Positions 781-60,363 of a DNA stretch of 64,000 nucleotides are shown here, in pieces. The stretch is from Pomacea canaliculata. Taxonomy: Eukaryota; Mollusca; Gastropoda; Architaenioglossa; Ampullariidae. The notes beneath the pieces were generated by a model. The model was not told where the DNA came from. It ran no database searches and saw only the letters and a list, made by a program, of their open reading frames with translations. Location of the stretch: NCBI RefSeq assembly GCF_003073045.1, contig NC_037593.1:8113525-8177524 (forward strand). Reading direction: 5' to 3'. Position numbers and translations under genes: made by a program. Within the stretch, counting starts at the first letter, position 1. The number at the start of each line of letters is the position of its first letter.

Positions 781-11537
<10,757 letters not shown>

Positions 11538-37950: not shown

Positions 37951-40900
37951 CCTGCACCCTGTGTTTCATTTATTTATTCGTTCGAAATGGGTAGCCAGTG
38001 GTTAGACCCACCCAAAAGTGCCCAAGCTATCCGACTCATTCCATCGTACTCCTTGTCACTCCCTCCTTTCCATTTAAAACGGCGTCTTCTTCCATGCATT
38101 CATTCACACATTTAAGTCTTTGAACTATGAACGGTCCAGGTGGCATTGTGAATTCAGATGTCACCTCCGATACTCATCCCACATCTTGTCATTGGATGTG
38201 GCCCCTATTGACTGGGTCGCAGTGATGTACCCTTGCTTGCTTACAGTAAAACACCAACAAATTATCAATCTCTGAGCTCGGAGCCCTGTCCAGGTAGCTC
38301 CCCAGAGCTCTCATCCCAGTCGAGTAGCATGGACAAAGTTAAATGGAGGATATTTCATACAAACTGATGTTTGTGTACAGTTTAGTCCTTCCTCCACCCA
38401 CCCCTTTCCTTGCATATTCAGTTAAATAGTGCAAATTAAAACAAGTTGTTAAAATTTATTGGTATAATTATTTTTATTGTATAACGTTTCTATTACAAAC
38501 AGCATTCTTCATTGTTCAAATGCTACACTTTGGGTTTCAGATAAAAAGGGAAAAAAATCACAAAATATTGTTAATATAAACCATTGACTTCATATTATTC
38601 ATTATTTTATTTTTACTTAATTTTAAAAAAATTAGTTATCTGGACCATTTTTGATGAATTCATAAATTACCCAGTCAACTTTAAGTCGGAATAGAGTGAG
38701 AAATGGTAAATTATTTCAAGTCCTTGAAGGATTGGCGAAAAGTTCACAAAATTCGATTTCAGGCAATTAGACATTCATGCTGAGACAAAAAGTTCTATGC
38801 ATAGCTTGTTGGCCCATGCAGATAAACAGAGCACACATTGCATTGTGGGTTTAAGCTGTCAGTTGTGACCATTCAAAACAGTAACCATGAGTGCAACACT
38901 GTGGAGCTATATATTGATGTTGGGTGGGAGTGCAGGCGTACGTGTGTGTTTTTTTAAAGTCGATAGTTTCTCTTTTAATTTGCTCCCATCTGATTAAGCA
39001 AAAGAATAAAACGGAAAGTAAACCAATGACATTTAAAATAAAAGGAATGCTAACAGAAAATCCACATCATTCACTTTAACAGACACTTGAACAAAAGTCA
39101 AGCAATACAGCATACTATATGTAAGCAATAATTTACAACATAGGGATATAATGATATTGAAATCAAAGATGTCACTGTTTAGGTCACATATCTAGGAAGC
39201 AATGTTATACCCAGATTGTGCAAACGATAACAACATTAAATACATATAACTTAATGGATTACGTCCGAGAGAACGTTGTCGCGAAAGCTGAGTTTCAGGC
39301 AGACAGGAAAGTGCACATTGATCTGTCTCCATTTCTCAATTTGTATCATTTCCAACCACAATTTTTGTCTTTCGAGATTTTAAGCATTTACTTTACTGGG
39401 AAAACATGACACTAAATTTTCTCCTGCCATTTTTTAAATTTTACGCTGCGACAGTTTATAAATAACAGCGATCATGTCCAGTCATCTCTTTACGTTTATG
39501 TGAAACTAACAGTGGCTAACAGACTAAACCTCTACTTCCGTTCCAACCATCGATGAGTGTATACTACGCATGCGCTGTACAATTGCCGAAATACTCTCGT
39601 TCCATGGGAAGCAAAATCGGTCGTACTGCGCATGCGCATTTCTTACATTCAGCAGACGATAGTACTGCAGCTCTAAATGAAAATTGAAGATCATGCTAGA
39701 AGATAATAACAAAAGTCACGTAAATTAATCCTTAGTGCAAGGAAAACAAATACCAAGGAAATGCAGGAAAAATAAATTTTAAGGTAAATATATATAATTA
39801 AAGAAAATAATTAATTTTTACATTGAGAGTACATGGCTGAGAACAGTCAACTAAAATCTGTCGAATAAATATATGCTATTGCTTTTGCGAACAATTAAGT
39901 TAGAAAGTGTAAAATGGTAAATTCAAAAATAAGAATGAGAACACATTACACTTGTCTTAACAGTCAAAGAAACTTGATAAAGTTTCTGGGATGTGCATCC
40001 AAGGAAAAAAAGAAAATCAAACCAGCTTGAAGATGAATTGAAGATATCCTACCAAAGCGAAGATACAGGTAAAAGTATGGCTATGATGGATGCATACACG
40101 CATACACATTCATCTCTTCACATTCACACACTCTATCCATGTACCCCATATAACAATAAAAAGTTAACAGTGGCTCCAAAGATAAAAAAAAAAGTAATGT
40201 TGTGATGAAAATGTGTTTTTATACAGATGTTATGCACATCTATAACTGATGATGAGGTTTGGCTGTTCAGCAGTCATGGTTAGGCGAGAAAATGTTTTCT
40301 TTATGACAAGCTGGTGCAATGTTTTTCTGAAACACAATAAAACAAAATTTAAAAATTGCCTCAACACAAATACAAAACAATATATTTCTTAGGTATTTGA
40401 CACTCAGAGGATCACAAACTTCGATAAGTCTGTGGTGAGGATAGTAACCTGTAACCCTGTCGCGGATGCAGTGTGGCTAGAAACAAAGAGGCGGACAAAA
40501 GAATGTCAGCTATAGAGCAGACGCGTTTGGGAGCAGTTTGCTAAGAGAGAATGTGAATAAAGCATACATATATCAATGCTGGCCACGTTAATTGTGTCTT
40601 AAGAGGATATTGCAGTGGGTGGGTGGGCTGGTTGGTTGGGTTTTTTTTTCTAGTAAGACCAGGAGGAGAAATATCTTCCCTCTCAAGGGACACATCGGAA
40701 GTCAGCAGCAAACCATATACTTCTGAAAAGTGATTGTTCGTTTAAAGTTTTTTTTTTTTAAACCGAGAACAGAAAAAATGTGCATTTTTTAAAAATTGTC
40801 TGACGAGTTTATCTTATTCTTGCTTTTCTTATACATGCATGATGTGTGACATCTACAGCGCTTCGCTGACGGTAGTCAACGTCAGGAGTTCTTGCAAACA

Positions 40901-41655: not shown

Positions 41656-44600
41656 CGTGGGGGTAATTTCGATGACCCATTCGCGTGCATACAAGGCCGA
41701 CTCCACAGCGCCTCTCGTTCACGATCTCATGCGGCTTGACTGCAGTAAACGCTGGTACAGTGCACACTGTAGACACAACACGCTTTTGAATGATCACTCA
41801 GCCATACTGCCAGCTAACATCTCCCTCAATTACTGAACAGTTTTAAAGCCACACGTTATTGACTTATTGATGTTGCCATCCCCGAAGTCAGGCTTCACGA
41901 TGACCTTTCAAAACCCGTTGACTTCCAGATTTATTTGTCTATTTTTTTCTTATTATTTTTCAAACACTGCGCTAAACTGGGCTTTCTGATTCTTGTTCTT
42001 TTTCTCGTTGTTATTGCTGTTCTTTTCCCTCTTCTTTTCGGTCCCTGCAAACTATTCTATGCCAAACTTTAAGACAAATAACCCAGTGGCCCCCAAGTCA
42101 CTCTTGCTTCCATAAAGCTTTATATTAATTTCTATCGTCTTTAGCCACGTCATGTATCTGTCCTTCAGGAGAGTAGAATTTTAATTCTAGGGTCTGGTGT
42201 TCTACTCTGCAGACATTGGTTATTACCAGCTTCAACTTGAACAGGTGAGCAATGTTTTAGTCGCCAACACCTTGTGTGTAGCCAAAGGGTCACTATAGCT
42301 GTTGCCAAAGGGTGGTTCATAAAGGGGAAAAGGATAGCAGTCGCATGGTGTTACTGCCGTCACAAGGTTGGTTTTTTTTTTAATGGAAACTGAAGGATGT
42401 TGTTAAGGTATTGTCATAGTTCTTAACATAAGATTCTCTCTGAAAGAGGGACCTAGCTGAAAATAAATACACATCATAGCCCTCTAAACCAGGTACATAA
42501 AATACCCCTCCCTCACCTCCACTGCATACATTGCACTGCGACCTACTTTTAGACACAAGTACAAAACAACCCTTCCCCATGTAAAGGGTAGCGAAGGCCT
42601 TCACGCCTTAGTGTTCTGGGATAGTCTGTTTACTTGCATATCAAAGCAACTCCAAAACATATTACATACCTGTACTGACCGAGTTTCACTCGCTTTTGAT
42701 GTGCATCCCTATTTGCGAGACTAATAAACGTAAAAAAAAAACTATTATTACTTTGTAAAGAGGAAGATATTTCTAACTTTTCTAAAATCTTCTTCCCCGT
42801 TTATGACAGTCCTGTGTTTTCTGTCTTGTGGGAGCAGCGAACTCTGTCCGGTGTAGTTTGGAGGCTGATCCCCAGGGTAATCATCCTTGGGGAAGTGTTT
42901 GGTAGTCAGATTGATTGTCATTCTTGATTGTAGGGTAGGCAGGACTGCAGAAAGTGTTATGTTTGTTTGTTTTTTTTTGTTTTTTGTTTTTTTTAAGCTT
43001 TCTTGTGGGATGTGTTTTCATCGTCTTGCTGAGAATTCATGCTGTCGCACAAATTTTTATTGATGTGGTTGAAAACTTGTGGCGTTAACATGTGTGTAAG
43101 CTAGTGAAACTAAAGTGTTTGACTAACTTTATTAACTCGGGAAGCTGACCTGGTTGACCAACTATAGTGACATTTTCACGTGTTTGACGCTTAAGGGGGC
43201 CCTGCAAGGCGCGTGAATTTTTCTCACTTACCGTGGCCGGTCCGAAGGAAGGGCTGACAGTAGCCGAAGTCGTCATCCGCTGCTCCTCGGACGCAGTGGC
43301 GGCGCTTGATGCAGTCGGCCCCCGAGTAGCAAATCACTTTCTTGACCTCCTTGACCTCCTGGTTCACGATGACCGCTGGCTTCTTGCTCCTGCGCTGCTT
43401 AGCTTTGTGTGGAATCGCGCATCCCTCCGTCAGACAAACCACCGTTAGGAGGGCCACCTGTTAACCAAGACCGGTTGTCACACGAAATGCAAGATGGCGT
43501 CCTCCTTTTGTGACCCTATGTTTATTGTAATGCTCATATCAATCTTTTTATGCTAGCACGCTAGGCTTAAAAAAAAAAGATGGACATGATGAAGCGTGTC
43601 TAAGGCAAGATTTGTTTTCAAATGATACTCTTGTTCACTTTTACCCTTCCCACGCCTGCAGAGGTACATGCTCGAGCGCGCGCACACACATACACCAACT
43701 TTTTTTCGGCTGTCGTGGGTCGTAAGTGATATCTTCTGAAATTTTCGTATTGGGATACACATGGTTAACATGATGAGGTCTGTACAAGTATTCGTTACAA
43801 GCAAGCATTGTCACCTTGGCATAACCCTGACACTGTTCGCAAACAGGGGAAATTCAACTCCATTCCCTTTCGTTGGCCTGGGGAACAACAAAAGTCAGAA
43901 CGGATTTGAGAACTGTGTTATGCAATGCTCGAAATACTTTCTTACACTACAACTTTGTGGTCGCCATTCATCTAAGATAACAAGTCCCTATAAAAGATTT
44001 TATGAGATTTAATAAAGCAAATTAATATTTACTCTACGGTTTCACCTGCAAAAAAAATTCCAGCTTATCCTCTAGTATGTTGAATTTTCTTCTGCTGTAA
44101 GAATATTGCAATATCTATGCGCAGGTGGTAATGCAACTTCGGAGGCAGCTATGGCCCAGAAGAAAAATGGGATCTTGAAGTCACAAAACAAACCCCGATA
44201 GTCAACATATGACCTGTAAAAGTCCAAGTTAATCTCGGAGGATTTTCTGTACTTGTGGTGTGTAATTATTGTCCCCGGCACAAGCACTAACAAGAATTCA
44301 GAATGTAGCCTTCTCTCGTCTTTCTCCTTTTAGATTCACCGAAATTATGACACCTTTATTTGTAAATGTGCATCGTTTCTCAGTGTCTTTTTCTTTTTAT
44401 ATGTATGTTATTTTAATGAGACTATTTATATTTTCGGTGCTTACATGCTGGTTAGCTCCCGAATGGACTGAAGAAAGGAAGTAATTCTATAGAGTTTTCT
44501 TCTTTTGTGATAATATACGTTTAAACAAACAATCCAAAGGGAAAAAAAACATTTAAATGCACTCATGATCAAATTGAAATAAGAAATATAACCTTGCTGA

Positions 44601-47393
44601 AGTTTTGAGAGGGATCATCTGTGCAAAATATTTGACCTTGATTTTGTAGTGACTCATGTGGAACGCCATTCTAAGCCACCAGATTCGCATTCCCAGCAGA
44701 TCGACTCACCTGTCACCAAGCAGCGGGGAAAATATTCCTTTAATATATACAGGTCCGCACTCATTTCGCCCATTTAAGTCCGGCAGACTCGGTGTCGAGT
44801 AGGAAAGGGTGCATCGGAGGTAATATATCAACAAATAATGTTAATGAGCTAAACGTAACCAAGCCATGTTATTAGTTCACGTGCACTGTCTCAGCTGGTC
44901 GAGAGCTCGGCGGGAGGCCACGACACTTCCGTTTGTCGCGTCGTGTAAATGCGCAGTAACAAACATGTCAAATAAACATCTAATTTTTAAAGTTCGATGC
45001 ACACACTGCTTGCACCAGAAATTTATTAAAAAAAAACCACAAGTGAAATTAAAAATATTGTAAGCGTTTACAGCCAGAATGGGTGGATTGATCGTTGTTG
45101 ATCAGTCATAGAGCAGACACAAAAAATAGCAGACGTGATTGGTAGTTGGCGCATGCGCGAGGATTTTCTAAATTATGCAACTGTCACTGATTGAAACTCG
45201 TTTTCAAACGAAGCGTATTTCCAGTATTACATGCGCTAGCTTGTCTGTTGTCTGGTGATACACTTTAGACGTGGCGCGTCTCCAAGGAAGGAAACATATA
45301 TACACGAACAAAAATGCATTAGAAAAAAAATATGTATATACAGAACATATATACAAGTACTTTTACGACTGTTCCACAGACAATGCACCTGCATTTCATG
45401 GGTTTTTTTTTTTTTTGCTTTCCTCTCAGCGCATCGCTAACAAGACCAGCGAATGGAGAAGGTTGAGGAGGAGGAGGAGAAATGACGTAGAAATGGAGTT
45501 ACCGCCCAGTGTCACACGTCCTCTTGAAATATACCGACGAAGGAGGACTGCGGCTGGAACCTCTTGTCCTTGCCTGGGGTGACCGTAGTGCATGCACGCC
45601 AAAAGTGCAGCCGCGGTATTTCTCACCTCTTGGGGTTGGGGTAGGTGCGAGACCCCAGTATTCGCATACGATGTACTTTCCGCCACTCCCGCCCATTGCT
45701 CACCCAGCCCGAGCAAACTTTTTCCAAAAGGCTAGTGCCTTTATTTACTGTACCACATAAAACGGTAGATCCTTCGTTTAGGATATATATTTTTTAAGGG
45801 GGGAAAAAGTTAACTGGCAGGGGAAAAAGAATTGTTCCACAGAAATAGGCGATTGCTGCTCGTGGAAAATATATTGTTATATGTATATAGAACTATTAAT
45901 ACTTCCTATGAAGAGAAGCGATTTTAATATTTGTAAGCAAGTTTGAGGCCTGTGTCGGAGATTCTTAGAGGCAATCTGCAATGAGACAGGCAGAAGCTGC
46001 TTTAACATTTACGATGATTTGAAATAAGAAATCGTCCCTTGAAACTCTTTGCTTTCCATTTCTCTCTCTCTCTGTGTTTTGAAAAATGATATAGGCTGAT
46101 TTTATATGCTGCTTCACTTTGTTAATGGTATTCTTCAGGTCATAACGACGAAGTCGATGACTATAAAGATGTCAAGTGTCATCCATGTGTGTGAAAGGAG
46201 TAAACATCCTCTACTGCTTAGTGGGTTGGTAGCGAGTGTCTATACTGAACAGGATTGATTACAGAATGTTTTGAACCATGAGGATTCTCTGAAGTCTCGG
46301 TAAAGAAAGGAGTGTGAAACAAAAACTTTATGAAAATCTTCAAAGAATGGTGGATTGTTACAAGCAGGATTGATGTAGTTAACTGAATAGCAGTGATCGC
46401 TTCTCAAAATGCCGTTCGTTCAAGTCTCTGTTGCAGCCAGAAAAATACTTGTCATATCTTACTATAAATACTTTTCTTAATTCTGTGCAAATATTGAAGA
46501 CGCTGAACACTTTTTGATGGATTGTTGATGCTTTACAAGACAAGTATCTGTGTAGGTATTGTAAAAACACACAATTACCTCAGATTACTCGTTCTGTGGG
46601 AATGTACATTTACCATACATTGAGTGTCAGAGTAGAGTGATAAAATGCAAACAAAAAATGTCAACAGCTGCCATTGTCATAGTGATATAGTTCTTAAGAT
46701 TCTGACTGCTGTGTAAAAAGTTTTGTTGATTGGTATCATTGTTGTATTTGACACCCGAGTATAAAGGTAGTGTTCTTATGTTCGTAAAGTTTTAGTTCTC
46801 CCTCTCTCTGTCTTTTTCGGTTTGTGTGTGTGGAGAGAGAGATAGGTGTGGGGTTTGGGACCGTGCGTCACGATAGCCATAAATAATCCTAGTTGACACC
46901 TATATCATTCATCAGTCTTTCATAAACTAAACTTGTTCTTTTCAGTCCACGGACTGATCCCCATTTTTTGAATCTGTGTGAACCGATGTGAGTCATAGCT
47001 GTTCATATTTTTTAGAGGGACCTCGTTCAGAGCTCACAAACCAAACCAGCTGGTGTAGAGAAATATACAGACAGCAAACACGTGCAAGCGGAGAAAAAAA
47101 AAATCAGAATTGTAAAAGGTACCTCAAAAAAGAAAATCACACACATACGCACACAAATGTGCGCACGCCCATACACACGGGTACTCAGGACGCACACAAA
47201 AACCCGTATAATCATGTAAATATACATAGTTATAAACATCCGACCAAAGATAAAAAAGTTCTTATTGTGAAGCCCCATCTTTTAAAGAAGACAATCCGAA
47301 AACTATAATTTAGACAATAAACAATAAAAGTATAATGCACTGAGTACTCACAAATACAATTAAGAAGACACGTGCTGCCTTGCTGGAGTCCAT
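41656..47393 (-). CDS. Small secreted cysteine-rich protein, prokineticin/AVIT-like (paralogue 1; last exon not found)
   Basis: Coding exons found: 47352-47393 (MDSSKAARVFLIVF), 43232-43457 and 41656-41766. Borders are GT-AG with phases 0, 1 and 1. The joined start gives a strong signal peptide (hydrophobic VFLIVFVALLTVVCL, likely cut after EGCA), then a basic stretch RRSKK. The mature part has cysteines spaced C-x5-C-x5-C-x11-C-x9-C-x18-C-x5-C. Prokineticins have C-x5-C, then CC, x11, C-x9-C, CPC, x5-C, so the frame fits with one Cys of CC and one of CPC absent. Exons 2 and 3 align with paralogue 2 without gaps in the cysteine region. A short fourth exon with the final cysteine is expected downstream but was not located. 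A TATA-like TTTAAAT sits near 47504-47510. Role: probably an extracellular ligand; inferred from fold only. Confidence 0.75.
43458..47340. other. Intron 1 of prokineticin-like paralogue 1
   Basis: No recognisable internal gene. It contains an NRF1-like palindrome GGCGCATGCGCGA at 45148-45160 and poly(T) at 45402-45417. Purine-rich (GGA)n sequence lies near 45460-45480 and CA-rich sequence near 47140-47200. Open frames seen here are low-complexity or antisense to simple repeats. Confidence 0.5.
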
Positions 47394-47520
47394 CACTACT
47401 GATGCTTAAAAAAGGTCTTTGTCAAAGTGTCTTCCTCCAGGTGGAGTCGTGTCGTCGATCAGGGAGAAGTGTAGCGTGTGGGACAGTGACGGACAGGTGG
47501 GCATTTAAATGCTCAGCCGA
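47394..47520 (-). promoter_or_regulatory. Probable core promoter of paralogue 1
   Basis: On the minus strand the sequence GCATTTAAATGCC (47500-47512) forms a TATA-like box about 110 bases upstream of the ATG at 47393. A TCACTG initiator-like motif lies about 25 bases downstream of it. This is a pattern-based call only. Confidence 0.35.
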
Positions 47521-48697
47521 TGGCCGTTAGTTGTTCGCTCGCTCGTGCGCTTTGTTCAACAGACCTTCAGTGAGGATCCTTCATGAGTGTGCAAAGCGGC
47601 GACACAAGTCACTGATTGGTTGACAGAGGTTACACAATGTCTGAACTAGCCGGGTGTTTCACGAACTTCTCCTATAACAGACTTTTAAGCAACCCGTAGA
47701 CCGTGACAGATTTGCTGAACCCTCCCAACCTCCTTTGATATTCCTGTCAGACAGATTTGCAAAAAGAATGTCCACAAAAAGCACCAGTGGAAAAGTACTA
47801 GATAACCGCAGTACATGCAGTAATATGTAAGAATGATGTACCACATGCATGAGTGAGCACAGCGTTTAAGTGGATTAAAGGGGATTTGGGGCATGGGTGG
47901 GTCTAGAGGTAGCATTGCAGTAGTTATGATTGTCCCCCCGCCTAAAGAGATACCAGTAGGCAAAACAACATGGGAGAGAACTATTAAATGTAACTAATAA
48001 CGCAAAGTTTTATCTTTAGATTGCAGTGAACACTGCAGGTAAGGCCACGCAAGTAATGCATTTCGTTTTTGTGCACCATATTACCCTACGGTTAGCCCAT
48101 GAAATCAAAGCTGACAGCTGTTTAAAAAATTTCAGGAAATACAGCTGTTAATTCATACAAAAATACACAGTGTATATTTTTAAAGCACAAGTAAAACAAT
48201 TTGAAATGACAGTAAGTCAACATTCAAACGTCAAATAAAATAGGATCATGACTTCCTTCGCCAAACCCTGTGAGGATAGAATTTTCAAAAGATGTATGTC
48301 TCTTGAACGGGAACACAACTTCTATCTCAGAATAATGGAATTATTATTGTTCATTGAACTAACTCGTTACTCATTTAAACATTAGCTGTCACCATTTCCA
48401 GAATGTTACTCTAATTCCTCTCCCACCTTGTCCCAATGAGTGAGCTAAATTAAAACCTCGGGCTGTTGGTTAAGAATGACACGTGAATTCATGACACGTG
48501 GGGGAGTGTAGTATTATCAAAGCCGTGACGATGACACGCATAATGGGGTCGGGAGAGAAGTAAGGGGGCATGGGAAGTCCAGGAATGTGTTTACCTCCGA
48601 GTTCCAGATCGTAAGGGAGCCGTCGAGTCAGATTACGCGGTATGAAGAAGCTGACACAGCATGGAGTCTTATCTCAATTTCGCAGCAAAAAATTCAC

Positions 48698-48778
48698 ACT
48701 TTTTGAATTGCCCCTGGGGATCAATAAAGTTGTATTGTATTGTATTGTGTTTTATTGTATTGTATTGCAGAACTAATT
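48698..48778 (+). repeat. LINE/SINE 3' tail with (TTGTA)n microsatellite
   Basis: TTGCCCCTGGGGATCAATAA followed by AGT and repeated TTGTA/TTGTG units is the well-known 3' tail of a LINE-mobilised repeat in many animals. Only the last 80 bases or so remain. Confidence 0.7.
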
Positions 48779-49059
48779 GCCAGATTTCAATGATTTTATG
48801 CAGCAAAAAGCATACTGTTAAAATACAAAGAGGAAGCGATGAAATAGTTAATTGTGCGCATGAACAATTAGCATCATGGAAACTATTAACAGCTATCATT
48901 TACTGGGCGAGAATGTCTTGGAAGGAAATCAGGCGGAAACAGCCATGGAATATGTTTTCTTATATGTCAATAGATTGACGTCAGTGCTAAAAATAGAAAA
49001 GTCACTTATATCCTATTTTGTGACGTAGTTAATTCATGCTGGCTCATTTCTTGCTAGGG

Positions 49060-49270
49060 ACGGTCAGGTGACACAAGGTTAGCGTTTGCTACCTTTCTTT
49101 CTTTGGCTTCCCCGGGGACCACGCCCGTCAGACCTTGATCCCCTCCTTGGTGACTAAGATGGCTTTTATCTCTAGGTTCTCTTTCGTGCCCCAGCCTGTG
49201 ACCAAAACAGCGAGGATTTACTGTCCTGGGTTCAGATCTCGTCTCGTGCGTCTCGACATTCCCACCAGAG
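49060..49270 (+). repeat. Possible tRNA-derived SINE fragment
   Basis: A stretch with an A-box-like AAGGTTAGCG near 49076 and B-box-like GGGTTCAGATCTC near 49229 resembles the head of a tRNA-related SINE. The separation is larger than in a tRNA, so the two boxes may belong to decayed or different copies. Confidence 0.3.
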
Positions 49271-51002
49271 CGTGAAAACCTTACCCATTCTATTTAGACC
49301 AAATGGTGTGTAAATAATTACGATGTGGCATGCTTTACTTTGATATCAACAGGACTTCGTGTTCTTATAATAGATTTCTTGATGTTGGCTGGTACCCGGG
49401 ATCAAGACTGCGGTAAGGAAGTGGATGGTGGTGGAGGGAGCCGCTCTTCTACTGCTGAAAAGTTGGACCGTGCTGAACATAATAGGACTCTCCGGATGCT
49501 GGAAGCCAGAGACAAAATTACTCAATCCGTGAATCGCAGTTAGATGCAATTAAAATTTATGTAAAATATGAAATTAATTTATGTTGACCAAAACTCAAGG
49601 ACATTCTATAGAAGTTGTCATACCCTCTCACAAACGCCACACACACACACAGACGCATGTATGTACACTCTGTGCATATCAAAAACTGATCAGAGTCAAT
49701 CGGCTTAAATTAAGTAGCAGCGTGACTAACCTAAGACTGACCTTGCTAGCTCGCCCGGCCGCTAACTGGGTTTATTATCCACGTTGCCAATTGTCATGAG
49801 TGAAGTCTTTGTCACGAGTGAAATCTTTCAGGTTAAAAAAAAACAACAACAGTCGTTTTACTGTTCTTTTTATAAGCTTTTTTTTAATAAGTTCTTTTTA
49901 TATCCATTTAGAACGTCGCTTTATTAAGCGCTGGCTTCCTTTTGTTCACTCTGCATGCATAAATAGAGCTGATTACAACTTAAATCTGGAAAATCAACAC
50001 AGGCGTCTTCCCGTTCACCTTGGTAACTGTCTTTTACCTCCCCTTCCTTGTAGGACGCATCGGTTGTCGTCCTTTTCCACAGTTTCCCGCCGATGCTCCA
50101 CAAGTCACGTAGCCGTCCGAACACGTGCAGCCTTAATAAAAGTTATTAGGACACTAGGTCTGCACAATGCACAGAAGTGATAGGTGCAAACAGTTATCAA
50201 GGCACACTTAGTGCTACGGTTACATTTGTGTACTTAGGAAGTGAAACCCACCCCACCACAAATAAAAGTTGCTATGTGCCCTTTGAGAGGTGGTGGTACA
50301 GAATGCTGCCCTTGGCATTGACATTGAAATCGGTTTATTATCTCGGTTTATTATTTATTCGAGAAAAAAAGTGTCTAAAGATAGAATTAAATGTGTAGAA
50401 GAATTAATGAAATACAATCCAGCAAAGAACGGTAACTGAAAGGTTTACGGTCCACTAATTTCCCCGCACTCGCCCATTCGTTTCTGGACAGGTAAAAAGG
50501 TTAAGCGTACTGAGTCGACATACACATAATATTCTCATACATAAATACTTTGAAATACAATTGATAAACGTAATATTCACATGCTTATGCATGTAAATAT
50601 ATTTTGTACACATAGATGTAAATCCTCTCTCTCTACGCGAACTCTGTTCTTTCATTCATTTTATCATCTTATCTGCGTGGCTCGTAGGGCAGCAACAAAG
50701 ATCCGCTATCCACAATCGATCCTGCCTGTTTTTAATCATCTTTCTTCACTTACCCCAACGTCTGATTCATTGCCTTTTAGTCTTTTACTGGTTCATTTCT
50801 TACTAGCCTCGGATGTTTGGGGTTTTCAGTTTTTCTGCCTTCCGTTTATTGTAAAGATTCAAGGGGGCAAGGAGAATATCGAAAATTCACTTTAAAAAAA
50901 GAGCCCCGTGACAATATCTTTCTCTTCTTCTCTTTTTTTGAAATCACCCCCCTCTCTTTCCTTACACAAAAGTGCTTTTTATGATAGAGCTGTCTTCTAA
51001 CC

Positions 51003-51340
51003 TTAGCACAAGACCAATTTATATTCGCCTTTTATAACTTCTTTGATTGTGGCCATGTCTCTTTGACTGGAGTATGAAAGGTCTTCGCCATTTACCATTT
51101 GTATAGGCAGGATTTTTTGCAAGCTGGAAGTAGGAAATGAGGACAATTTATTAATATCTCTTTCTGTTCTTCTCCAGTATTGTGAACAGTACAGTAAGGT
51201 CAGGACGCAATTCTGACACACTTCATATTTGTGTGTTGGCTGTACTGTGCTGATTTCCATACTCTTTTTCATGCTCTGACAAAACGAAACCTTGCTTGCC
51301 TTGCCGAGTCTGTCTTGCATCATTCTCAGCACCTAAATCA
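51003..51340 (-). mobile_element. LINE reverse-transcriptase C-terminal fragment (RTE-like)
   Basis: The minus strand reads RLGKASKVSFCQSMKKSMEI, then VLTLLYCSQYWRRTERDINK and LSSFPTSSLQKIL, ending with DMATIKEVIKGEYK. It is the decayed equivalent of the common LINE block 'LLYGSETWRxTxxxxxKLxxFxxxCLRRIL'. The fragment starts and stops abruptly. Confidence 0.75.
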
Positions 51341-52009
51341 CTTTTAATAACATTGCCCAAAGAGGTCAAACTATTTGTTGTTGGTTGTGGTAATTCATGG
51401 ACATCTATTTTAAGTAAGATAAGATTCTCGGAGGTTTAGTATCATCTGAAAATCGTTCACAGGTCCGTACAGCTTGATGTCGAGGGGACACTCTTGATAC
51501 TTTGTTGCCTTGTTGCTGACAATGTTTACTGTACTAATTTTAGTTTTTGTCATGAAGATTTATTTTAAAATTAGCATTACAGTATCGTTACGCTGCCTAG
51601 CTTACCAATGGAAACTGTCTTCATTCGCAACTGCACAAGAATTAATAAGTGACAGATATATATATATATGCACAGAAAAAATAAAGTTAGGTCTTTATCT
51701 TTACCTGTAAATAATGATATGAGACAGGCACGCAAAGGTGGTCTATGTAGTGCAAATCTTCCCGTGCCTATGTAGTGCCTATGTACTCTCTACCCGACGC
51801 TCTTGGTACTTTGTTGGCAATTTGCTTCAATACCTATACAGCACGATGGAAATTATTGCTGACATCATGCCTCCGGTTTCCGGTTTCCCGCAGTTGCACC
51901 TGTTTTGCGTATCGCTGACACTTCAGTCATAGGAGACTACTTCGTTTTCGTTTATCTGCATGTTCTGTGCATTCGACAGCGCTTGGACTTTTAATCTTTA
52001 CCATATCTA

Positions 52010-52200
52010 TCATCAGTAACCACTGGTATCAAAACACAGAGGCGCAGGTTCGATACCCATGTGGTGCAGCGAACTTCCCCTCCTCCTCACTCCCACCCCA
52101 GGTGTTGGCAATGTGTACCTGAATACATAGAGGGTAGTGCAAAAGTAACAATAAAAATAAAAAAAAATTTAAAAAAATGGTGACCTCAGCCGTCTCCACC
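52010..52200 (+). repeat. tRNA-headed SINE, copy 1
   Basis: It contains a good B box, GGTTCGATACC (about 52049), then GTGCAGCGAACTTCCCC, and the family marker GTGTACCTGAATACATAGAG. It ends in an A-rich tail (about 52148-52178). It shares the block around GTACCTGA with the copies at 53022 and 53523. Confidence 0.55.
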
Positions 52201-52523
52201 TAACGATCTAAAAAAAAAAAGTGGACGAACTTTACCTTTCACTTATCACCAATAAGCAGACAGAGTGAGGGAGAGAGAAGAAAAGATAGATAGATCTCTG
52301 TCGCTAATCTATCTAAACATGAAGTGTGCAGGGCATGTCCTCACTAATCAAAGACCATCTGTCGTTATATTTAATTATTAAACCAGCACAAGAGCAGGCT
52401 AAATAGTAATTTGGTTTCAGTTTACTGGTATTTCCGTGACGCAAAAATTAATGACGAAAGATGATCACACGATCATGTTGCCTACTGCCTTGTTTTTCGT
52501 GCAACACCAAGGACATAAAAAAA

Positions 52524-52757
52524 TTGACGATACCACCTGACGTTACAGCTTGACGACACCGCCTGACGTTACTGCTTGACGACACCGCCTGACGTTACAG
52601 CTTGACGACACCGCCTGACGTTACAGCTTGACGACACCGCCTGACGTTACTGCTTGACGACACCGCTTGACGTTACAGCTTGACGACACCGCCTGACGTT
52701 ACTGCTTGACGACACCGCCTGACGTTACTGCTTGACGACACTGCCTGACGCTGTAAA
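52524..52757 (+). repeat. 26-bp tandem repeat, nine units
   Basis: The unit TTGACGACACCGCCTGACGT plus TACAGC starts at 52524 and recurs every 26 bases through 52732, with the first and last units diverged. Units alternate only by A/T in TAC(A/T)GC. Each unit holds TGACGTTA and TGACGACA, which resemble CRE half-sites. Recent slippage or unequal exchange is implied by the near identity of the middle units. Confidence 0.9.
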
Positions 52758-53021
52758 GTCACACATCAAGTGAGACCAAGTCTGTCCACCTGTCTGTCTG
52801 TGTATATATAAATAACATTGCGTCGATTTATGAATATTAACCTCACTTTCCTCGAAATCGCGCGCGCACACACACACGGAGAAGGAAATGAGATGGTAGT
52901 GCCTTGACAAGAGAGGTCTCATTTCCCCTCATTGAAATATTTTATGAGTAATGAATAATAATGACAATGAATGATGTTCAGTTTTGTATCTTTATGTTAC
53001 TTTCAAATAGTTGTTATCAGC

Positions 53022-53215
53022 GGAAGCGGGTGGCCGAGTAGTTAGAGCGCTGGCGTCGGATCAGAGCTCAGCTCACTTCCCCCAATCGACCCCGGTGGCA
53101 GGAATGGGTACCTGACTCCAAAGAGGGTTGGGAAAGGTAAGGCAGCGAGGTAGAAGATATGGGCACCACCCTCACGTGAAGCTGACTCCGAGAACATCGT
53201 CAAACGCTAGAAAAA
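53022..53215 (+). repeat. tRNA-headed SINE, copy 2
   Basis: The head GGGTGGCCGAGTAGTTAGAG is an A-box region like tRNA-Ser/Leu. It is followed by ATCGACCCCGGT in the B-box position and the body marker GGGTACCTGACTCCAAAGAG, then GGGTTGGGAAAGG and CACCACCC. The A-rich end is near 53210. Confidence 0.65.
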
Positions 53216-53522
53216 AAATCAGAATGATACATATTCCCTCGCACACAAATTTAACTACATATCATGTTGCTCCATTGCCATTGGATATGACGCAGAGAAG
53301 ACGTTTTCGAAGCATTTCCCACAGCCAACAGCACAGATTTGCTATGCAATATTGTAAGGTTGAAGACCTTTAAGACTTTTTTTTAACTTAATGTGGTGCA
53401 TTTCAAACTAATGATAAAAGCTCAGTGCAAGAGGGTTAACTCAGTTTATCGAGTTACAAGCTTACAAGCGTCAGCATGCACAGAAGGAGGTCTATTTCGA
53501 GACATCACGATACGCCTAATTA

Positions 53523-53720
53523 ATACAGGGGAAGTGGTTAGCCAGATGGTTATAGCACTTGCATCCGAACCCTGGGGTGCAGCAAACTTTCCCCAGTCGA
53601 TCAAGCTGTTTGTCACGGGTACCTGACTCTGGGGAAGGGTTGGGTGAGCAGCGAGAGGGAGAAGAGGGGGTCACCACCCAAAAAAATAATTGTCTTCGAG
53701 AAATGTGTGATCTTTCCCCC
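53523..53720 (+). repeat. tRNA-headed SINE, copy 3
   Basis: The head GTGGTTAGCCAGATGGTTAT is followed by CATCCGAACCC, then CCCCAGTCGATC and the body GGGTACCTGACTCTGGGGAA, GGGTTGGGTGAGCAGCGAG and CACCACCC. The middle aligns with copy 2 from GGTACCTGACTC through CACCACC. An A-run follows near 53680. Confidence 0.65.
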
Positions 53721-53992
53721 AACGCCCTAAGATAGGTTAGGGGATGACTTAAAATAGGTTACAGAACGACATTTTTCGTAACTAGCATATGGTCCTAGCT
53801 ATCTAACTGCCTTGACAACGGAAAATCCTGAAGTCTGTGCTGTTTTTCAGGTAGTTTTTTGGCCCTTGAATTGGAAGTTTTTCCTGTATGCTTTCTCTTT
53901 TTCTCTTCTGGTGCCTCAATAGCAGTCAATGTAGCGCACTAAGCCAGTAACACCTTTATTCTGCCGTGACATTCTTTCACCTTGCTTTAGAG

Positions 53993-54193
53993 CAGTGGTT
54001 CTTAATAACCGGGGTTCTATCGAACCCTAGGGGTTCGGTGAGTCGGTCTCAGGAGTTCGGCGGAGCCTCCACCACGGAGGTCAAGACACACCCGACTGAT
54101 TATGTAAATTCGTGATGACACTAAAGAAGGGTTCGGTGAATGTGCACATGAAACTGGTGGGTTCGGTACCTCAAACAAAGTTAAGAACCACTG
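53993..54193. mobile_element. hAT miniature element with perfect 8-bp target duplication
   Basis: The 201-bp element begins CAGTGGTTCTTAA and ends TTAAGAACCACTG, perfect 13-bp inverted repeats. It is flanked by CTTTAGAG at 53985-53992 and 54194-54201. The interior carries GGGGTTCGGTGA-type repeats in both orientations and no coding frame. The intact target duplication suggests a comparatively recent insertion. Confidence 0.93.
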
Positions 54194-54201
54194 CTTTAGA
54201 G

Positions 54202-55660
54202 CAAAGTAAGTGAACCAAACATCGTTACACTCCGCTTTCTCCCGCAAACGTTTTCAATGGAGGTCACATCGCAAATTGTTCGTTGTAGTGGTTGTAGAGC
54301 TACTACATGTCCGTAGCTCAGGTAACATTGAAAAAAGGTTGCTTCGGAGGAAGCAATTGATAAACAAACACAGCTTTCAGTCTTCTAGTAGCTGATTTCT
54401 TCAAAATTCTGTTAGGACTTGACAAAGGGTGTGTGTATGCATGATATATATATATACAAACAGAGCTTTATTCATTAGCTGCTTGTTTTTGACCAACAGC
54501 TCTCGTAATGAGCACTCTTGGGTTACTGTTTTTGCATTTCTTCTTTCCCACGTGAAAACCAGTATTAACATATTTTTTCTGCTTAACTAAAGCGACGTGA
54601 AACATCGTAATCAGAAGTGCGTAAATAGAACGAGAAAAAATTTACACATATCCCTGCTAGATCCTTCTAGAACATTCCACAGACATGACTACAGCAGACA
54701 GCGTGTTGATGAGAAGGATATGGGTTTGAATTCGAAGCAAACAAACAGGTGAAAATCCATATTTTCCCCCCCTAGAATTATTTTTGTCACGAGAAGTCCG
54801 TATACATTTCATATACTACGACTTTTGAAGTTAGGAAAAATAGGCCGACAACAACTTTTGCTTGTCTAGCAAGAACAACAAGATCACATCCTGTTGTTGA
54901 TGAAGTCAGCAACCCTAGCGAGGACGTTGTAACGAAAAAGTATTTTTTGAAAATGCGGCCAGGTGGAACTGAATGGCACAAAACATTAGCCTGTTGTCGC
55001 AATCATCGTAAGCGATTTTGTTTCGCTATTGTATTCGGACCAAAGGTACGTTGACCGCATTATATTGCTATTTTGTTGTGTTTGTTCTTTTGAATGTTTT
55101 TTTTTCTTGCTCGCCTACTCATTTTTCTGTTTTTATTTTAATTGTCTTTGTTTAATTTCTTTTTTTTACTTCGGAGCGGAAAACCGAAATCACATCAGTT
55201 AAGTTTCTTCAGTGATTGCTTATATTGATTATTGCGATAATGGAAGATGATATAGTTAATTATTATCATAAAGGAAAATGACTTTGTGAAGTTGGAAAGA
55301 GATTATTTTACCTAGAGGTGATATCGTATTGTGATAACTGGATAATGGACTGCTAGACGCTCTGCCTTCTATAGTGACGTCATGACCAATCGTTTCACGA
55401 GTAGTTCGACATCACCACAAATTACTGGGTTTTTTTTTTTCATCCTCATTTTGTCGAGAACATTTGAAGTAGTGTATAATTATAACTGCAGCTTAGGTAA
55501 ATTTTTAATGTAAAAAGTAAAGCGAGGAGAGCTAGCGGCGTGCTAGGATTGTGTACTTACCCTAACCCTGGACTGTTTAATATCTTTAACTGACTAGTCA
55601 GAATACCTCACTTACCCAGCATTGCAATCATTGTGTTGTCATAAATAGATAAAATTATTG
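54202..55660. other. Gene-free interval with one long unexplained open frame
   Basis: The plus-strand frame is open from 54776 to about 55145. It includes SHPVVDEVSNPSEDVVTKKY and GGTEWHKTLACCRNHRKRF and passes a donor-like GTACGT at 55026. No start codon opens it and no family is recognised. The opposite strand is also open for 71 codons, so coding status is undecided. The rest has only T-rich runs and a (TA)n at 54445. Confidence 0.35.
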
Positions 55661-55668
55661 TCAGTTGC

Positions 55669-55860
55669 ATGACAGGGACATCAAAGCTTGCTCGACAAGA
55701 ATCTATGTCTGTAAAGCGTCGAACCTCTTTACTAGGTTGGGCGAAGCAAGAGGCAGGGTTCCTAGCGATAAATGGAGGGGGTAGGAAACTGGAGTACCCG
55801 AATAAAATCCCCGACTGCCATCACTGCAGAAAAGAGATCTCAACCTTTAGTTGGTGATAA
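55669..55860 (+). repeat. Degraded copy of a widespread interspersed repeat
   Basis: GGAAACTGGAGTACCCGAAT with AAAATCCCCGACTGCC is a decayed form of the motif GGAAACCGGAGTACCCGGAG followed by AAAACCC, found in dispersed repeats of many animals. Boundaries are not visible. Confidence 0.4.
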
Positions 55861-55913
55861 CAAGGGAGTACACTACCGAGTGCACCCCCCCCCTCCAAAA
55901 AAAAAAAAGAAGT

Positions 55914-55985
55914 TTCCCGTGCCGGGAATCGAACCCGGGCCGCCTGGGTGAAAGCCAGAAATCCTAGCCACTAGACCACACGGGA
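55914..55985 (-). tRNA. tRNA-Glu (anticodon UUC)
   Basis: A 72-base gene read on the minus strand starts TCCCGTGTGGTCTAGTGGCT and contains the anticodon loop CTTTCAC (anticodon TTC). It ends with T-arm GGTTCGATTCC and acceptor CACGGGA plus discriminator A. The 7-bp acceptor stem TCCCGTG/CACGGGA is perfect. A and B boxes are intact. A run of T on the minus strand just downstream (55898-55910) would stop RNA polymerase III. No intron. Looks functional. Confidence 0.95.
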
Positions 55986-55999
55986 GGCTGGAGAGGCAA

Positions 56000-57295
56000 C
56001 GATTCTGACGAGACAGATGACTTCAAGGAAGAGGCTGTTGTTGCTGGTGTAGTGAAGTAATTTACGAGGACAGTAATAATGATGACTTTCGTAACCACAA
56101 AGATGATGACAATAATAACTAGGCTATGAAAACCTAGCCAGGTCAGGTCAACAAAATTGTTTACCCTGTAAATTTTCATCTGCTGGAAGTATATAGATGG
56201 ACTGATGACCTTGCCTCTTGCGAAGTTTTCCGCTCTCGGCAAACCAGAAGAACCTTACATCCGGAGGAGCAGCGAAGATGGAATTTACCGACTTCTGATA
56301 TCAACAATATAATTACCGTAAGTGCACTGCTTTGTTGCACTATTAACCAAACTTTTGCCTATTTAGAACACAAAAGTATTTGCTTCACTAGTCTGAAATC
56401 TCATTTTATGAAATGATAAATAATATGAAACGCACATAAACATAGAGATCTACAATCACTGAAGTGTTCGCATGTATGCTTCACCTTGGTCTCTTGCTTA
56501 TATAAAATCCGCTTGTATGGGTAACGTGGCTTGGCTTGTTTTCTGTAGTTATCTTTGCTCAAAATTTGGTATTTTGTTGTGGTTTCAGGATGGTGATTAC
56601 TTGCTACATATTCAAGATAGTGGTAGTCCTGATAAAAATTCGGTATTGACAGAATGACAGTAAAGGTAACAGACTTAATTTAATTTGTGCACTTGTAACG
56701 CGCAACATTACGGCAGAGATAGGTCGCACTCTTTGCGCTGACAGTAATGATAAAAGACAATGGAAGGTTAGGCATACTGAACAGATGAGGTGAATGCAGC
56801 CTTGCCATTACATGGAATCTTTGATAAGTAAATAAAGTTCTGCATCCAAAAATATCTGAAAGTTACTGGAGATACCTGATGTCAGTCATGTCAGACCTGC
56901 CTGTGTTGCATGAACAGCTTGCTGTGACAGCTCCACATCAAACCTTTGTGAAGCAGCTGCAGGGAGGTAATCCGAGTTTGAAGTCGACATTGCCCATGTG
57001 TAGATTTAAAATCTAAATAACGGCTTCAATCATCTCTGTGTCGGCGAAGGTGTGTGTGTGTGAACTGAAAGCACTTCTCTTGATCTTGGACTATTCATAT
57101 ACAAGTTTTTGAGCAATAAGAATATTTAGTTAATACACTTCTCGAGTAATTTAATGAATGACGTGATTGTTAATAACTAAATTTGTTTTTATGGGCATGT
57201 CTTCTGCTATGTGAAAATTGTCTAAACCTTATAGTCGCGAACTAAAAACATGTACAGGAAACAGGAGAGTAAGAAGTAAATAACCGAGCCAACAA
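56000..57295. other. Gene-free interval between tRNA-Glu and the THAP exon
   Basis: No gene or classified repeat recognised. It would form the intron downstream of the THAP exon on the minus strand, but no later exon of that gene was found. Confidence 0.4.
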
Positions 57296-57305
57296 TAAGA
57301 TCAGT

Positions 57306-57553
57306 ACCTTATTTATGCATTCTTCTTTAAAGTGCCTTGAACAAATCTTGGCTCTCAATGAATTGAAACCTTTGTCTGAACAGCCTACACCATGAATGAG
57401 AGCCGCTCGCCACTTGTCTTGCTCTGTCGATGTTCCTGCCCGCGGAAGCGAAAAAAAAAAACTTTCACCGAAAGATTTGATCCTTGCACAGTTGCATTTC
57501 ACCAAGCAGCAGTAAAAACCACCTTTTGTGCGTTTCTTTATTGTTGTCATCAT
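57306..57553 (-). CDS. THAP-domain exon (C2CH zinc finger), rest of gene not found
   Basis: THAP domains are zinc-dependent DNA-binding modules of chromatin factors and of P-element-like transposases. The exon starts at ATG 57553 (a second ATG follows), with an in-frame stop upstream. It shows CCLVKC (C-x4-C), then FFFSLP, DKWRAAL (the invariant Trp) and KICSRHF (C-x2-H-F), in the right order and spacing. The frame reaches ECINK and a donor GTACTG at about 57305. No following exon was recognised on the minus strand, so it could be a host gene with far exons or a relic of a THAP transposon. The final AVPTIF-type box was not seen in this exon. Confidence 0.7.
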
Positions 57554-57599
57554 CTTAAGGTCTCATCTCTGTGCTATGGATTCTTTGAAGGCTCCTACC

Positions 57600-59100
57600 C
57601 CCACTACTGAAATCGTGTCTGTCTACACTCCTGCCCATTGGATCCTCACCAGAATCTCACATCCTCCCTCCCACAAAGACAGTCACAGAGGGACAACGGG
57701 CGTCCTCCCTTTGTGCTGCTTTGTGCTTCAACACTTCGATTGTGCATTATAAGTTCCCATTATTATTTATTATTATCATCAACATCGCGTTTACCGATCC
57801 TGTCCAAGGGAATGAACCCAATCACTCGCGCAGAAATTCCGTACACAGTAGACCAGGGGAGACCAATCCTATTCATATGAAGAATACTTTATGGATTGCC
57901 TTTCCTGCGCGTTCACACACTTTGAATACGGATATAATATCTAAATTCGTGCTTTAAATGCGATAGTTAGTACCGTCAAAGATGGGAACTGAATTTCATC
58001 TCCTTTAAGTGCATATATATATTTCCGATTCTACCAGGAACTATAGGCAGTTGCAAGGACCTTGCTTTTTAAAGAGAGGAAAAATGTTAGGGAACTATCA
58101 TTCTGGAGAATATATCGGCTTCATATTTAACTAAATTTATTGAAATAGTGAATTTATTGAACGATACGCTTAGATATATTAACTCAACTGAAAATTTAAT
58201 TTATATGCTGCCAGTTGTGATTTACGCGGTTTGATTCGCTAGTAGTGGTAGGATTCTCTTGCTTGAAGAATCTTGAAGAGGTCGGAGGTGAGGTAGCAGC
58301 GCAGCACTTGTCTCTCGTTTATACCGTGACAAGAGCCCAGCACTGACTCTCTCTCCGTGTATGTGTGAAAAGAGAGGGGTGTTTTAAATTGATGCACAAT
58401 CACTCTACCACAAGGTAGTTCCTCCTCTCTCTCTTAAAACACACACACACAAATTTTCTGTCATCGTCAATAACACCATTTTCGAGAAAAATAATGTACA
58501 TGAAAACAGAATGTGAGCCTTAATTTTATTTCCAGTATTTTAATAGGCATCTGACTATTAGCTGTAGTTTTAGAACGGTAATTTACACAGTAAGTAATTT
58601 GAAGTTTTAGAGACTACATCAAAACACATCAGTGAGTTATTTTAGTATTTAGATACTGATTCAAATCACATTAGTGAGTTATTTTAATATTTAGAGACTT
58701 CCTTATAACACATCAGTGAGTTATTTTAGTATTTAGATACTGATTCAAATCACATTAGTGAGTTATTTTAATACTTAGAGACTTCCTTATCACACATCAG
58801 TGAGTTATTTTAATATTTAGAAACTACATCACAAAACGTACTATTGTATTCACAATGTACAAGGGTATTTAGTATTTTACCCCATGGATGCTAACAATGT
58901 AGTTAGTAATTCAAGACTAAATAAAAACAACTCCACAGCAATAAAATGTTAAAAATAATTATCTGCCAGAAAAGTTTTCGATTTCCGTATTTCCTATGTT
59001 TTCACAGCATTTTTCACTCGCTAAAAATGTTTTGCGATGTATATAAAGAGTTTCTAGAATACGTATTAGTTGTCCCAACAAAAGATTTCTGCGGTATTAG
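57600..59100. other. Gene-free interval with a TACCATC-type repeat copy and a 42-bp tandem array
   Basis: GATAGTTAGTACCGTCAAAG at 57962-57981 matches the repeat at 25911 at most positions, including the trailing GGGAAC. A 42-bp tandem array lies at 58625-58834. Otherwise AT-rich with no recognised gene. Confidence 0.5.
58625..58834 (+). repeat. 42-bp tandem repeat with 84-bp alternating order
   Basis: Five units start at 58625, 58667, 58709, 58751 and 58793. Each begins CACATYAGTGAGTTATTTTA. Units 1 and 3 continue GTATTTAGATACTGATTCAA; units 2 and 4 continue ATAYTTAGAGACTTCCTTAT. The true repeat is thus an 84-bp dimer, copied as a pair. Confidence 0.9.
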
Positions 59101-59179
59101 TGATAAATTGTGTAGCTGGAAGAGATGAGGGGTCAGCTGATGCTGCGGGGCTGTGACAGCGCCTCCTTGCGGTGGATGA

Positions 59180-60363
59180 TCATCGCGTCACGCTCGTGCA
59201 CTCCATCACTGAAATATAAAGGACATGTTAGAAAATGGAATGTATGATTAAAATCAAGTTGAAGGCGTTCGTTCGAATTTTTCTGGTTAACTGATATATT
59301 TTTACTGCACCGTTGTGGTACGCTGTTGTCTTTTAGCTTACACTTTTATCAAAATATGCTTCAAAACATTGGGCGTAGGAAGATGCTCAGCTCTGGGGAT
59401 GGTGGAGAGGGGGAAAGTGATGCTGACAGTGAACGACACATTCAGCACGTGGGCAGCAAAATGCATGCAACATGCTCCGTCCTTCTTGAGCTGCCCTTTG
59501 GCTTCCAAACCAACCCTAACCCTTCGCACAAGACTGGCGTACACAAGCACACACATACAAACGTGCACGCACGCACAAAGTACAGCTTACAATCAGGGTT
59601 GTCCCGGTGGTGCATGATCTGACACATGAGTCCTGGTCCACACAGTCTATAGTTCACCATCCCCTCCGGCTTCGTCATCGTGTAATATAGTTGTGAGCAC
59701 ACTGTCCAGACAACCAAAGTGTCGTGTGTGGATAACATATTAGGGTTAGGTGGAACTTGTGGCTACAGAGAGAAATAGATTCACTCATTCTCTCTCATTC
59801 TTTCACACAGAGAGAAAGAAAGAAAGAAAGAAAGAAAGGAAGAATTTGCTTACGTACATCGAGTCAGACAGAGAGAATACACTACCGACAGACCAAACAA
59901 ACGGTCGGACGCAAAATCAAGTAAAAAATCTAACCAAACAACTAACTGGCCAAAATAATACTTGCATAAGTAAAAATAATCAAACAAACGAACGAACGAA
60001 CTAACCCACCAATCGATGAAGCCAGCCAGCCAAACAACCAGCATACAAACAAACCAACGACCACAATCAACAGGTGAACAAACCAGTAAGCAACGCAGCC
60101 AAACAAACAAACCAACGAAGAACCAGCCAATTAACCAATGCTGACTGATCGACCAAGCAAGGTTTAATTAAGGACAAGGCTTCATCCTCACCTTCGCCAC
60201 TTCTGAGAAAACGTTCGCAGTAGCCATGGTCGTCAGATGGGCTCCTCTTGACGCAGTGGCTCCTTCTGTCGCACTGTGACCCTGCTGTACACTGCACCCC
60301 CAATGCTGTCGTCGCCGCATCTGCATTCCCGATGATCACAGACATGACGGCGGCCAGCGACAC
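59180..60363 (-). CDS. Small secreted cysteine-rich protein, prokineticin/AVIT-like (paralogue 2; first exon uncertain)
   Basis: Exons are 60192-60363, 59591-59701 and 59180-59208. The middle exon is 111 nt, exactly as in paralogue 1, and phases match. The mature region reads VQCTAGSQC, HCVKRSPSDDHGYC, ERFLRSGEVC, YRLCGPGLMC and finally LMECTSVTR then stop, giving eight cysteines in the same spacing as paralogue 1, with the last 13 residues after the seventh. The hydrophobic VSLAAVMSVIIG is the rest of a signal peptide. By analogy the initiating exon should lie further upstream, possibly beyond the right edge. Alternatively translation starts at ATG 60417 in a continuous frame, which also gives a usable signal peptide; a TATATAAG motif lies at about 60519. 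Function is inferred from fold only. Confidence 0.72.
59811..60165 (+). repeat. Simple repeats in intron of paralogue 2
   Basis: A (GAAA)n run at 59811-59840 is followed by a degenerate tetranucleotide tract of AAAC, AACG and CCAA units to about 60165. Low-complexity open frames on the minus strand here (runs of V, C, W, F) are artefacts of the repeat. Confidence 0.8.

Follow-up and report, generated by a model that had tools for sequence, protein, structure and literature searches.

A tandem pair of eight-cysteine genes in Pomacea canaliculata, probably related to a prokineticin cluster on the same contig

The stretch of the Pomacea canaliculata genome analysed here, called the window, is 64,000 nucleotides (nt) long and corresponds to contig C4:8,113,525-8,177,524; a window coordinate w becomes contig C4 coordinate 8,113,524 + w. 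Genome searches covered 440,159,624 bases in 24 contigs. The window contains two minus-strand genes, gene 1 and gene 2, which code for small cysteine-rich proteins. The DNA shows their gene anatomy, their cysteine pattern, and an intron position and phase in common with canonical prokineticin genes located further along the same contig. The two genes are probably diverged tandem relatives of this prokineticin (astakine-type) cluster that code for secreted proteins with a four-disulfide colipase fold.

Exon anatomy of the gene pair

Cysteines are numbered C1 to C10 after the ten-cysteine relatives; the pair keeps C1, C2, C4, C5, C6, C8, C9 and, in the proposed last exons, C10. Gene 1 starts with a proposed exon of 42 nt (47352..47393, minus strand, donor GTGAGT, phase 0) that provides the ATG and the first half of a putative signal peptide, MDSSKAARVFLIVF. 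Exon 2 (43232..43457, minus strand, 226 nt, acceptor TAACAG, donor GTAAGT, phase 0 to 1) codes for the remainder of the signal peptide, a basic extension and C1, C2, C4 and C5, and exon 3 (41656..41766, minus strand, 111 nt, acceptor CTACAG, donor GTGAGT, phase 1-1) for C6, C8 and C9. The proposed exon 4 (40301..40326, minus strand, acceptor at 40326) encodes EKHCTSLS and a stop and includes C10. It was picked from 17 candidates in the 51 kilobases (kb) downstream that had an acceptor, the right phase and one early cysteine; 13 were dropped by a motif filter, and the four inspected are all at most 12 kb away. EKHCTSLS was preferred because its cysteine position and the CTS agree with gene 2. 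A search by similarity among the downstream reading frames gave no convincing terminal exon for gene 1.

The proposed exon 1 of gene 2 is located 1 kb past the window end (64998-65039, minus strand, 42 nt, MGHFTSSSFCFVLL); it has the most hydrophobic ending among 12 candidates in 13 kb and is equal in length to exon 1 of gene 1. Exon 2 (60192..60363, minus strand, 172 nt, acceptor GTGCAG, donor GTGAGG, phase 0 to 1) codes for the end of the signal peptide and C1, C2, C4 and C5, and exon 3 (59591..59701, minus strand, 111 nt, acceptor GGACAG, donor GTAAGC, phase 1-1) for C6, C8 and C9. The proposed exon 4 (59180..59208, minus strand) encodes LMECTSVTR and a stop, including C10, behind an acceptor chosen by eye, ATATTTCAG, that has the correct phase. 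We put second an alternative frame for this exon (59133-59200, HERDAMIIHRKEALSQPRSIS), which needs a second acceptor and is without the eighth cysteine. In the proposed last exons of both genes the cysteine comes 13 residues after its predecessor, with TS directly behind it. Re-derivation from the DNA gave GT/AG splice sites, open frames and phases 0/1/1 for both genes; the 111-nt middle exon, the common splice phases and the common cysteine spacing, all reported in an earlier sequence-only reading of the locus, were upheld.

With the proposed exon 1 in each, the N-termini of both genes are hydrophobic when read by eye. Gene 1 has an extra cysteine beside the likely signal-peptide cut (TEGCA) and, in exon 2, the basic extension before C1, IPHKAKQRRSKKPAVIVNQEVKEVKK, which contains dibasic sites and is absent from gene 2. 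A small peptide might be released at these sites. The extension is of interest because an annelid prokineticin precursor is described as carrying amidated peptides there, behind its signal peptide (PMC3890597). An N-terminal AVITG, described as essential for the activity of vertebrate prokineticins (PMC8877203), is absent from the pair: ATTALGVQ stands before the domain of gene 2, and AVIV, whose likeness to AVIT is probably accidental, ends 11 residues before C1 of gene 1. Astakines are likewise described as being without AVITG (PMC11521371).

The domains of gene 1 and gene 2 are 47% identical (46% when the proposed last exons are included). Codon positions 1, 2 and 3 agree in 40, 50 and 28 of 72 codons, respectively, and no similarity between the second introns was found at E-values (E) up to 1. 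This codon-position agreement together with the dissimilar introns suggests that the two genes are old duplicates constrained at the protein level. Genome searches with the single proteins, in which only the best candidates were scored, did not reveal a third eight-cysteine copy. One of five and three of eight matches lay outside contig C4 (on contigs C6, C7, C11 and C12), all of them weak (E 0.56-1.16), and none had the cysteine pattern when translated on the matched strand. The weak gene 2 match at contig C6:4358116-4358214 (plus strand, E 0.85) has one C-x18-C and no other cysteine agreement; it reads through the intron 2 site and is, so, a chance match or a decayed intronless copy. Across 151.6 kb of contig C4 scanned by pattern, the exon 2 pattern without the CC pair was confined to the two window genes.

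Cysteine pattern and the missing disulfide

The cysteine intervals 5, 5, 11, 9, 18, 5 are identical in gene 1 and gene 2. With the proposed last exons added, each gene has eight domain cysteines at intervals 5, 5, 11, 9, 18, 5, 13, which agrees with the eight remaining cysteines claimed earlier. The spacing of human prokineticins includes the intervals x5, x11, x9 and x5, as in the pair. Ten cysteines in five disulfides are typical of prokineticins and astakines; the pair has eight, with C3 and C7 absent in both genes. Both copies have a histidine (His) at the C3 site and an arginine (Arg) at the C7 site, which in the gene 1 domain are His14 and Arg54.

Each of the 45 cysteine pairs was dropped from two canonical prokineticins of contig C4, K1 and K3, and from a Dickkopf-like domain on contig C9, and the spacing was compared with that of the pair. 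Removal of C3 and C7 was the best of the 45 for K1 and K3, and for the contig C9 domain it tied with removal of C3 and C8; K1 without C3 and C7 reads 5, 5, 17, 9, 18, 5, 15. The sequence-only reading had proposed the loss of one cysteine of a CC pair and one of a CPC motif, which this result bears out. It had also stated that the two lost cysteines bond to each other, and the published colipase-fold pattern does contain this bond (C1-C4, C2-C5, C3-C7, C6-C9, C8-C10; PMC9918498). Since C3 and C7 are both absent and form a published bond, exactly one disulfide would go.

We infer that each gene would encode a small secreted protein of colipase fold with the four disulfides C1-C4, C2-C5, C6-C9 and C8-C10, and that the fifth bond, C3-C7, would have been lost through substitution of both partners by His and Arg. 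Without this staple, the loop between the two subdomains would loosen, and the contact with a receptor would be altered. The proteins would act as paracrine or circulating ligands of the prokineticin or astakine sort. By analogy, the fold appears able to tolerate the loss of C3-C7, for which there is a near precedent, because Dkk4 cysteine-rich domain 1 (CRD1) and Dkk1 CRD2 are described as having four of five disulfide locations in common and differing in the fifth, which in Dkk1 CRD2 ties a loop to the first sheet (PMC6078440), and because protostome dkk CRD-1 domains are reported to have eight cysteines in common (PMC6425005).

Canonical prokineticin neighbours and competing readings

Four canonical ten-cysteine prokineticin genes, K1 to K4, are located in tandem on the minus strand of contig C4 at 8,234,320-8,241,407, 57-64 kb past the window end. 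Each carries C-x5-C-x4-CC and C-x-C-x5-C. The route to this cluster led over another domain: DKK1 as a query identified a ten-cysteine Dickkopf CRD2-like domain at contig C9:4205151-4205447 (plus strand, one uninterrupted frame), which is nearest to Dickkopf 1/2/4 C-terminal subdomain 1 in Pfam (E 1.9e-5, below the cut-off) and to DKK2 in PDB (E 8.4e-5). This domain, used as a query in turn, gave weak matches at 8,236,680 and 8,241,243 of contig C4 (minus strand, E 0.21 and 0.26). K3 or K1 as query recovered all four cluster genes and the contig C9 domain, and no window exon. Pfam Prokineticin (PF06607) matches all four cluster genes with E 7.1e-5 to 0.011, but K4 alone exceeds the cut-off (23.5 bits), so the model performs poorly on snail sequences. 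Colipase_C is above its cut-off in one of the four (K2). One of K1 to K4 may be the published Pc-PlP of Pomacea canaliculata. A genome scan with the Prokineticin model at E up to 10 gave three matches, none among the six genes, and human prokineticin 2 as a genome query gave one match (E 0.78) without the cysteine pattern. One of the three Prokineticin-model matches, a frame at contig C2:39919052-39919198 (plus strand), is over the cut-off (24.2 bits) and is without most of the cysteines.

In all six genes, the pair and K1 to K4, intron 2 is in phase 1 and interrupts the codon just before C6, with predicted GT/AG joins. The C5 codon is followed by the donor after 25 nt, and the acceptor precedes the C6 codon by 2 nt, which leaves nine residues between C5 and C6. 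The joins were first chosen by eye, and alternatives were then enumerated within 150 nt on each side. This gave 2 in-frame GT-AG joins for gene 1, 18 for gene 2, and 2, 15, 2 and 26 for K1, K2, K3 and K4; exactly one join in each gene yields nine residues. The length of exon 3 is divisible by three in every one of the six genes, at 111 nt for the pair and 117-120 nt for K1 to K4; exon 2 is entered from phase 0 throughout (acceptors chosen by eye), and the second introns of K1 to K4 are 95-418 nt long as joined. Plausible short last exons with C10 were found for K1 and K3 (GSCIQV and GTCESS, each followed by a stop, from 3 and 7 candidates, respectively); a convincing one was not found for K2 or K4. 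As far as the predicted joins go, the pair has its gene structure in common with bona fide prokineticin relatives in the same genome, and no other evidence speaks as strongly for a common origin of the pair and K1 to K4.

The prokineticin-domain proteins of molluscs and arthropods (astakines, Cragi-prokineticins and Pc-PlP) have a single cysteine-rich domain after a hydrophobic start, an arrangement that the gene models suggest for the pair as well. C1, C2, C4, C5, C6, C8 and C9 of K1 to K4 are in register with those of the pair, and the position and phase of intron 2 are equal; however, K1 to K4 retain the CC and CPC motifs, whereas the pair is without C3 and C7. The C4-C5 interval is x11 in the pair and x17-20 in the canonical genes, and the PLG motifs are absent from the pair. 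Vertebrate prokineticins (AVIT family) differ in having AVITG and C3-C7, and the oyster Cragi-prokineticins are described as retaining ten cysteines (PMC8398477) compared to eight in the pair. An identity of the pair as Prohormone-3, which is given 12 to 16 cysteines (PMC8398477), was ruled out.

Several observations weigh against a relationship with the cluster. Between pair and cluster lie roughly 56 kb of DNA with a RING-finger-like frame (labelled by eye). For K1 to K4, no exon 1 was found and the exon 2 acceptors were set by eye. Two random losses among ten cysteines hit bonded partners 1 time in 9. Neither gene of the pair was matched by Pfam Prokineticin at E up to 10. A K1-K4 profile scores -1.1 bits on gene 2 (925 of 1000 shuffles are equal or better) and just 12.2 bits on gene 1 (E 0.21, 0 of 1000 shuffles), and the pair profile scores -0.9, 0.0, -1.0 and 6.9 bits on K1, K2, K3 and K4. 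A DKK-type profile, in contrast, reaches 19.0 bits on gene 1 and 16.1 bits on gene 2 (0 of 1000 shuffles each). The hhalign probability is 2.7% for the canonical profile (E 0.017, one comparison) and 0.6% for the contig C9 domain; most of the eight cysteines are in register in both alignments. In a tree of nine domains, in which one of six inner branches is firm, the pair joins DKK1 weakly (70/82), with long branches, outside the cluster.

By sequence, the pair is nearest to Dickkopf CRD2. The best Pfam scores, all below the cut-offs, are for Dickkopf_N, DX and AtDEF-like (gene 1) and EB (gene 2), the Dickkopf_N match being on gene 1 alone (E 0.025-0.19); NCBIfam gave no match. The pair profile gave five matches at E up to 10 among 177,635 PDB sequences: four are C-terminal domains of DKK1 or DKK2 (E 0.0065, 0.0066, 0.04 and 0.053), and the fifth is an unrelated photosystem subunit (E 2.1). 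In the HMMER alignment of the pair with DKK, the cysteine register holds in the second half and fails in the first. With the pair profile, DKK1 reaches 19.7 bits, a score attained by 0 of 300 shuffles with the cysteines fixed (mean -0.55, standard deviation 2.0), although the E-value and not the shuffle measures the surprise, because the DKK targets were chosen as top matches. DKK2 scores 17.5 bits and the contig C9 domain 0.2 bits. Dickkopf CRD2, the best PDB match, is like the pair in its G-x-V-C and C-G-x-G-L-x-C surroundings, and the DKK1 intervals 5, 4, 0, 8, 9, 16, 1, 5 amount to the 18 residues that the pair has from C6 to C8; CRD2 is unlike the pair in its CC pair, its CxC motif and its C4-C5 interval of x8 instead of x11. 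Like the pair, Dickkopf CRD1 starts with C-x5-C-x5-C without a CC pair, and eight cysteines are reported for it in protostomes (PMC6425005); the pair differs from CRD1 in its 18-residue loop. The prokineticin-related, colipase-fold assignment of the sequence-only reading thus gains from the intron match with K1 to K4 and from the Dickkopf CRD2 domains as the only PDB matches below E 1, and it loses from the missing Pfam Prokineticin match and the failure of the K1-K4 profile on gene 2.

This likeness raises the question whether gene 1 and gene 2 code for Dickkopf-type proteins with a single domain, binding LRP or a different Wnt co-receptor, instead of prokineticins. Besides the proximity to the CRD2 of DKK1 and DKK2, the sub-threshold Dickkopf_N match of gene 1, the eight cysteines common to protostome dkk CRD-1 domains and the four disulfide locations in which Dkk4 CRD1 and Dkk1 CRD2 agree would fit such an origin. 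We nevertheless consider it unlikely, as the dkk-like domain on contig C9 is intronless, whereas intron position and phase in the pair are those of the contig C4 prokineticins. Moreover, each gene model has one cysteine-rich domain and not the CRD1 and CRD2 of Dickkopf proteins, and the contig C9 domain obtains just 0.2 bits from the pair profile, although the prokineticins do no better except K4. The sequence leans towards Dickkopf CRD2 and the gene structure towards prokineticin; we weight the gene structure more heavily, since no intron interrupts the dkk-like domain of this genome. An unrelated cysteine-rich scaffold (defensin-like, EB- or DX-type) that has colipase spacing by coincidence is very unlikely. 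The EB and DX scores are as weak as that of Dickkopf_N (about 13 bits) and AtDEF-like is weaker, and among 20,000 random eight-cysteine spacings, 375 fit some template equally well (at least five of seven intervals within one residue; the pair has 5). Together with the 1-in-9 chance of losing bonded partners, this makes the cysteine spacing alone mild evidence. Against coincidence stand the intron of identical position and phase in six of six genes and the non-cysteine residues, which carry the Dickkopf match (its score was reached by none of 300 shuffles in one test and none of 1000 in the other).

The relationship could also be right and the products not be signalling ligands, but colipase-fold inhibitors or defence peptides. 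A spider colipase-fold protein is described as a trypsin inhibitor and MIT-like atracotoxins are said to be inactive on prokineticin receptors (PMC9918498), and no prokineticin receptor is reported as known in protostomes (PMC8557429, PMC8398477). On the other hand, the pair gave no sign of an inhibitory loop, although no search aimed at one was made, crustacean astakines and those of an oyster are reported to affect haematopoiesis (PMC9178244, PMC8398477) and to raise haemocyte production (PMC9178244), and we regard a function other than signalling as rather unlikely.

If the pair is related to the prokineticin cluster, it adds to a family that is not new to molluscs. Prokineticins have been described in this phylum, where the family is in places expanded, for instance to 35 transcripts in a monoplacophoran, and Pc-PlP of Pomacea canaliculata was proposed as a cytokine, a role that was later disputed (PMC9178244). 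The suggestion that the family is undescribed in this lineage therefore does not hold for prokineticins as such and may hold for the eight-cysteine form: no description of an eight-cysteine prokineticin was found in a literature search that covered few subscription papers. It is conceivable, if doubtful, that the pair founds its own branch of gastropod ligands, natural prokineticins with four disulfides in which a conserved His/Arg couple takes the place of the staple between the loop and the first subdomain. Such a ligand would be looser and would have a receptor of its own, and the pair would represent the shared four-disulfide core behind the bonding of both Dickkopf CRD1 and CRD2. Canonical genes and two relatives without C3-C7 in one neighbourhood constitute a natural experiment on a dispensable colipase-fold disulfide. 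The pair and K1 to K4 also form a matched protein set for receptor hunting and for haemocyte assays in a snail with a disputed prokineticin-like cytokine.

Other features of the window

Clathrin heavy chain exons are located at 2994-4899 on the minus strand (Pfam Clathrin, Clathrin_H_link and Clathrin-link), and a Malectin domain exon at 28041-28586 on the plus strand (E 7.1e-23). Between gene 1 and gene 2 lies a THAP-domain frame (57248-57562, minus strand, E 6.6e-5) that is perhaps a transposon remnant. Reverse transcriptase and HTH_23 frames below the Pfam cut-offs (7251-7583, plus strand; 19803-20330, minus strand) are likely mobile-element remnants.

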